Assembly: GCA_003210095.1 (NCBI GenBank)
Contig: QCNP01000001.1
Location: 170,001 to 234,000 of the forward strand
Direction of reading: 5' to 3'
DNA from: Pelagibacteraceae bacterium AG-426-E17
Lineage (GTDB): Bacteria > Pseudomonadota > Alphaproteobacteria > Pelagibacterales > Pelagibacteraceae
Length of the DNA: 64,000 nt
A program made the translations under genes and the position numbers. Shown one piece after another: positions 45,887-50,760 of the stretch (the stretch's first letter is position 1; each line of letters opens with the position of its first letter). The notes under the pieces are model-generated. The model saw only the letters and a list, made by a program, of their open reading frames with translations, searched no databases and was not told where the DNA came from.

Positions 45887-45963
45887 TGGTACACGGGGAC
45901 AGATTCGAACTGTCGACCTTCGGTTCCACAAACCGCTGCTCTAACCAACTGAGCTACCCGTGC
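45887..45963 (-). tRNA. tRNA-His(GTG)
   Basis: RC GCACGGGTAGCTCAGTTGGTTAGAGCAGCGGTTTGTGGAACCGAAGGTCGACAGTTCGAATCTGTCCCCGTGTACCA. Confidence 0.95.
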
Positions 45964-46515: not shown

Positions 46516-46590
46516 TGGTGGCCTTGGTAAGAATCGCACTTACGACACATACCTTTTCAGGGTACTGCTCTACTACTGAGCTACAAGGCC
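46516..46590 (-). tRNA. tRNA-Phe(GAA) with atypical D- and T-loops
   Basis: GGCCTTG TA GCTC AGTAGTA GAGC A GTACC CTGAAAA GGTAT GTGTC GTAAG TGCGATT CTTAC CAAGGCC ACCA; all stems pair. Confidence 0.88.
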
Positions 46591-46591
46591 A

Positions 46592-46807
46592 TTAAAATCT
46601 AAATATGATACGCCCTTTTGTTAAATCGTAAGGGGTAACCTCTACTGTAACGTTGTCTCCTTGCAAAACTCTAATTCTATTTTTTCTTAGCTTTCCTGCA
46701 GTGTGAGCAGTTACAACATGGTTGTTTTCTAACTTTACTCTAAACATTGCATTAGGCAAAAGATCAATAACTTTTCCTTTAAATTCTAAAGAGTCTTGTT
46801 TTGACAA
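46592..46807 (-). CDS. infA: Translation initiation factor IF-1
   Basis: [66 protein letters not shown]. Confidence 0.97.
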
Positions 46808-50685: not shown

Positions 50686-50760
50686 GCCCTTGTAGTTTTA
50701 GTGTTAAAACAGGCCCTTGGTAAGGGTCAGTCATGAGTTAGATTCTCATCGAGGGCACCA
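50686..50760 (+). tRNA. tRNA-Thr(GGT) with highly atypical D- and T-loops
   Basis: GCCCTTG TA GTTT TAGTGTTA AAAC A GGCCC TTGGTAA GGGTC AGTC ATGAG TTAGATT CTCAT CGAGGGC A CCA; all four stems pair, anticodon arm matches bacterial tRNA-Thr(GGT). Confidence 0.82.

Follow-up and report, generated by a model that had tools for sequence, protein, structure and literature searches.

The elbow of a single-copy tRNA-Phe

The window analysed here, a stretch of 64,000 nucleotides from the genome of Pelagibacteraceae bacterium AG-426-E17, contains five tRNAs. One of them, a tRNA-Phe(GAA) with an encoded CCA end, lies on the minus strand at 46516-46590 and was called by both ARAGORN and the Rfam model RF00005 (46516/46519-46590, minus). 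Covariance-model scoring, which an earlier sequence-only reading of this DNA had suggested, gives it 68.0 bits with RF00005 against a gathering score of 29, the top Rfam score among the five tRNAs. Just upstream is infA, coding for translation initiation factor IF-1 (46592-46807, minus); since this open reading frame ends at 46592, a single nucleotide separates its stop from the tRNA gene, exactly as that reading had noted. All 21 stem pairs form, and both the G19:C56 and U54-A58 pairs are possible, so that the earlier description of intact stems and an available G19:C56 holds.

The numbering of the 7-nt D-loop (AGTAGTA, 46571-46577, minus) follows canonical loops of equal length in this genome, such as that of tRNA-Gly (AGTGGTA), with which it aligns base for base; this places the missing G at position 18 and not at 19. 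The D-loop then reads A14 G15 U16 A18 G19 U20 A21, with A18 at 46574 and G19 at 46573, and the T-loop (TGCGATT, 46532-46538, minus) reads U54 G55 C56 G57 A58 U59 U60, with G55 at 46537 and C56 at 46536. Sequence and loop alignment agree here with the first description of a D-loop with a single G and of a T-loop with G at position 55. Tested against the canonical elbow, this tRNA-Phe lacks G18 and U55 and has A18 and G55.

The genome (1.15 Mb, 99.3% complete) encodes 33 tRNAs, among which the search for another tRNA-Phe gene, also proposed at the outset, found no second copy. A tRNA with changes in both loops could conceivably be specialised for a non-ribosomal role, as is the staphylococcal peptidoglycan tRNA-Gly, whose D- and T-loops are likewise altered. 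This is very improbable for tRNA-Phe: as the sole gene it must decode Phe codons, it retains the G19:C56 and U54-A58 pairs, and its A18/G55 swap is found in most isotypes (see below). Its sequence is that of a probable functional elongator, the only tRNA-Phe of its cell.

Positions 18 and 55 change together within the order

We scanned 247 genomes of the order, and then 25 chosen ones, with a tRNA-Phe pattern in which positions 18 and 55 were left free; 150 listed matches and 22 further ones make up a tally of 172 genomes. Among these listed matches, 97 genomes combine A18 with G55 and 75 combine G18 with U55, and this order-wide pattern scan yielded no mixed state (0/172). By group, again among the matches listed, the A18/G55 version occurs in all 22 genomes of genus g8, in all three of genus g9 and in 72 genomes of the window's own genus (g1), in which a further 24 are canonical. 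The groups that bear TruB, the Psi55 synthase (genera g5, g6 and g7 and family f2), have canonical tRNA-Phe in all matches listed. Relatives with canonical loops, which the sequence-only reading had envisaged as grounds for refuting the change, therefore do exist (24 of the 96 listed g1 genomes), but each of them has both canonical bases, which speaks for covariation and against an error.

Comparison of eight distinct sequences of the A18/G55 version shows differences at 11 of the 21 stem pairs with pairing kept at 100%, which indicates selection to preserve the fold. That the unusual loops might result from faulty sequencing or assembly deserves next to no credence, given that the same A18/G55 combination appears in 97 genomes of three genera (among the matches listed) together with compensated stem changes; the initial claim that the joint change is real was right in this respect. 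Its wording, that the tRNA had "lost both partners" of the pair, was not: the 18-55 pair is swapped, and in none of the cases examined within the order does one of the two bases change without the other.

The swap extends to four isotypes within the order, Phe, Val, His and Thr, implying that the switch arose several times, each time on both sides of the pair. In the genome studied, tRNA-Val(GAC) combines the D-loop AATAGTA with the T-loop AGCGTAA, that is, A18/G55; among the relatives tested, its homologues have A18/G55 in g1, g7 and g8 and are canonical (AGTGGTA/TTCGATC) in family f2. The tRNA-His(GTG) of the window (45887-45963, minus) has a canonical elbow; its homologues have A18/G55 in some g1 genomes and one g5 genome, and are canonical in others. 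For tRNA-Thr(GGT), A18/G55 was found in two g1 genomes and the canonical version in others. The tRNA-Val(GAC), which lies outside the window (G000:C1:141249-141323), also has A54/U58 replacing U54-A58. Its D- and T-loops are identical across the window's genus, and its T-loop reads AGCGTTA in one g8 and one g7 relative.

A18/G55 tRNAs in other organisms and viruses

The same combination occurs well beyond this order. In IMG/VR contigs, the A18+G55 pattern with D-loops of 7-9 nt matched at least 120 stretches; with 7-nt D-loops, A18 was accompanied by another base at 55 in two cases and G55 by another base at 18 in none. In genome contigs, a version of the pattern with the V-loop RGGTC, leaving out the tRNA-Phe of this order, matched at least 119 stretches. 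Those listed belong largely to Micrarchaeota (tRNA-Ala, some tRNA-Thr) and to Patescibacteria such as Nomurabacteria (tRNA-Phe), and A18/G55 tRNAs also occur, among the matches listed, in tRNA arrays located on contigs of Planctomycetota, Chloroflexota and Verrucomicrobiota. For a count independent of the pattern, we classified only the other tRNAs on the matching viral and genome contigs, excluding those that the pattern had selected and setting aside ambiguous D-loops (e.g., AACAGGA, which can be read with G18 or with A18). The unselected tRNAs with unambiguous loops comprise 152 A18/G55, 235 G18/U55, one A18/U55 and no G18/G55, a result in which the choice of contigs outside the order for at least one A18/G55 tRNA inflates the apparent frequency of the state and leaves the absence of mixed states unaffected. 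On these viral and genome contigs, the A18/G55 state is found in most isotypes. Among tRNAs with G55, positions 54-58 are U-A in 340 of 354, and position 57 is always a purine. The statement that G18 and U55 pair in virtually all elongator tRNAs was consequently too strong, A18-G55 being a recurrent minority state.

The joint change in four isotypes and, with very few exceptions, in unrelated organisms and viruses looks like the compensated replacement of one pair by another and, judging from the tight covariation with stems and G19:C56 intact, A18-G55 is probably such a replacement pair. One might instead imagine that, after genome reduction and the loss of TruB, constraint on the elbow relaxed and A18 and G55 accumulated as independent, tolerated losses. 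TruB is indeed absent from this genome, and the genus has several tRNAs that deviate from the consensus. However, such decay predicts A18/U55 and G18/G55 intermediates, of which there are 0 in 172 tRNA-Phe among the matches listed and one in the 388 unselected, resolved tRNAs; the bases that take the place of G18 and U55 are nearly always A and G, respectively; and genera that bear TruB have A18/G55 in tRNA-Val or tRNA-His. We consider relaxed constraint highly improbable.

Several viral and bacterial tRNA arrays (L156, L117, L199, L201, L231 and L246) have A18/G55 in most or all of their tRNAs, covering most isotypes; in two of them the state is complete, with 17/17 tRNAs in L156 and 19/19 in L199. 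It is also absent from other arrays. No G55 tRNA was found in the stretches read of Xanthomonas phage XacN1 and Mesorhizobium phage Cp1R7A-A1, nor in those of Mycobacterium phage Alice and Aeromonas phage PX29, so that the idea of A18/G55 as a common feature of all phage tRNA arrays is ruled out by four tRNA-rich named phages. Among 289 genomes sampled evenly across the class, true matches were confined to the window's genus, the only match outside it not being a tRNA. Together with the four phages, this makes the distribution of the A18/G55 state patchy. Wholesale conversion of arrays counts in favour of a swap selected to escape an enzyme that recognises the elbow, be it a nuclease, a toxin or a modification enzyme, and viral tRNA arrays would fit this idea. 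We nonetheless deem it unlikely as a separate explanation, given that the analysis identified no such enzyme and that the four tRNA-rich phages have no G55 tRNA; moreover, escape is compatible with a replacement pair rather than an alternative to it.

Relationship with the loss of TruB

A search for the TruB domain PF01509 found no match in the genome studied, nor in two further members of its genus whose near-complete genomes consist of one contig each. Across the order, the domain was detected in 0 of 186 genomes sampled from g1, g8 and g9 and in 50 of 61 elsewhere, many of these 61 being incomplete. The operon infB-rbfA-truB-rpsO-pnp tells the same story at the level of gene order: truB sits between rbfA and rpsO in g5, and rbfA is followed directly by rpsO in the genome studied and in examples from g1, g8 and g9. 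In the genome studied, the operon (G000:C1:430010-433258; L346) shows a clean deletion of truB with no remnant.

In a four-protein tree, g1, g8 and g9 form a single clade, whose sister group comprises g5, g6 and g7. Combined with the distributions of tRNA-Phe versions and of truB, this tree places the switch of tRNA-Phe and the deletion of truB on the same branch. The canonical g1 genomes are nested inside g1 (with partly weak support within the genus, 51-73), and part of g1 would then have either returned later to the canonical pair or acquired it by gene replacement. The T-stem of the canonical tRNA-Phe genes found in part of g1 (L006, L007, L008, L329, L330 and L331) has a U-C mismatch (GCTGG/CCCGC); these mismatch-bearing genes, surrounded by A18/G55 relatives, may be reversions or replacements.

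The association with TruB is not strict. Both tRNA-Val(GAC) in g7 and tRNA-His in g5 have A18/G55 in genomes that bear TruB, so that its loss is not required for the switch, and one TruB-less subclade of g1 carries the canonical version of tRNA-Phe. The switched Val and His tRNAs of TruB-bearing genera rule out the idea that the loss of TruB was the only cause. TruB loss is a correlate of the switch and not a prerequisite, the link between them resting on one branch. Outside the order, PF01509 matched in 7 of 20 genomes with such tRNAs and was not found in 13, most of which are small, with completeness not given and without a matched baseline. Two complete genomes with A18/G55 tRNA-Ala, Micrarchaeum A_DKE and Micrarchaeota ARM-1 (L205 and L242), have no TruB_N match; in archaea, this domain should detect Cbf5. 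In a Nomurabacteria genome with A18/G55 tRNA-Phe (L223), TruB_N is present only as two pieces (G569:C37:4095-4359), one of them with an internal stop, which looks like a decaying truB.

A proposed second solution for the tRNA elbow

In the canonical elbow, built from G18-Psi55 and G19-C56, residue 18 lies between residues 57 and 58 and is bonded to Psi55 (PMC4810234). According to the literature, Psi55 is universally conserved and fast translocation requires the 18-55 pair (PMC4810234, PMC7912444), the importance of the pair in this step having been reported by Pan et al. (2006), as cited in PMC4810234. The tRNA-Phe studied here shares with this elbow U54-A58, the purine at 57, C56 with G19, all stems and, presumably, a residue 18 inserted between 57 and 58. 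It differs in that 18-55 is A-G, not G-U/Psi, and in that G55 cannot be pseudouridylated, in a genome from which TruB is absent.

A structural precedent exists outside tRNAs. In UGNRA lone-pair triloops (type R1), T-loop-like motifs of riboswitches, the G commonly pairs with an A from outside the loop, and the result is a composite GNRA tetraloop (PMC2258182); in the FMN riboswitch an outside A intercalates in the triloop in the same manner (PMC12550061). The UGCGA of tRNA-Phe (46534-46538, minus) fits this consensus, and A18 is available as the outside A; it differs from the riboswitch motif in lying in a tRNA T-loop and in that C56 additionally pairs with G19. On this basis, we propose that U54-G55-C56-G57-A58 would fold as a UGNRA lone-pair triloop closed by U54-A58, with G55 making the U-turn. 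A18 would slide between 57 and 58, the usual site of G18, and form a sheared pair (trans sugar-edge/Hoogsteen) with G55, so that G55-C56-R57 and A18 would make up a composite GNRA tetraloop and the L shape would be kept without Psi55. This sheared geometry is likely by analogy, although other A-G pairings would covary too.

In evolutionary terms, tRNA-Phe would have switched from G18-U(Psi)55 to A18-G55 in the ancestor of the genus and its two sister genera, on the branch that also saw the deletion of truB. Without Psi55, U55 probably conferred less of an advantage, although Val and His switched in genera where TruB is still present. We hold this TruB-linked pair swap, taken as a whole, to be quite likely. 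Whether A18-G55 can be generalised as a so far unrecognised second elbow pair, with GNRA-like sheared geometry, independent of Psi55 and with many separate origins among bacteria, archaea and viruses, is in our opinion evenly balanced; if so, lineages losing TruB would drift towards it, and the "universal" G18-Psi55 would be one of two workable solutions.

Other tRNAs are known to depart from the conserved elbow bases, such as tRNA-Pyl and mitochondrial tRNAs without the GG and TPsiC motifs (PMC7609411). They either lack the elbow or rebuild it with other contacts, whereas tRNA-Phe has a standard cloverleaf in which a replacement pair that covaries would preserve the elbow. A single-copy and presumably essential A18-G55 tRNA-Phe in a lineage without Psi55 synthase offers a direct means of telling the role of the pair from that of the modification. 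From the 18-55 covariation follows a precise expectation for double mutants, open to testing in Escherichia coli, and quality filters or models of tRNAs that treat U55 as obligatory are affected. We found no report of natural A18-G55 tRNAs in the open-access literature, subscription journals being outside the scope of our search. Steinberg and colleagues (2003-2007) reportedly randomised the D- and T-loops of suppressor tRNAs and discussed residue 18 in the T-loop; their work may already include the A18-G55 combination.

Further variation in the tRNAs of the window and its genome

The neighbouring elbow pair varies as well. In the tRNA-Thr(GGT) of the window (50686-50760, plus; D-loop TAGTGTTA, T-loop TTAGATT), U19 (50704) and A56 (50740) replace G19:C56, and G18 and U55 are kept. 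The same U19 with A56 was found in the tRNA-Thr(GGT) of three g1 relatives; homologues in relatives include canonical, A18/G55 and G54/G58 versions. Scanning for tRNAs with G18 and U55 that have neither G19 nor C56 gave 109 distinct matches, 106 of them Watson-Crick (96 A19:U56, six U19:A56 and four C19:G56). By its bases, the U19:A56 of the window belongs among these Watson-Crick swaps, analogous to A18-G55. One-sided changes at 19:56 also occur, which implies that this pair covaries less strictly than 18-55.

The tRNA-His of the window (45887-45963, minus) has A73 and a G1 opposite U72, and the predicted tRNA has no encoded extra G at -1; tRNA-His with such features is on record for some Alphaproteobacteria. 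Elsewhere in the genome, a CAT-anticodon tRNA has a second copy of degenerate appearance (G000:C1:830528-830601, 44.9 bits), perhaps a pseudogene, about 2 kb from an intact one.
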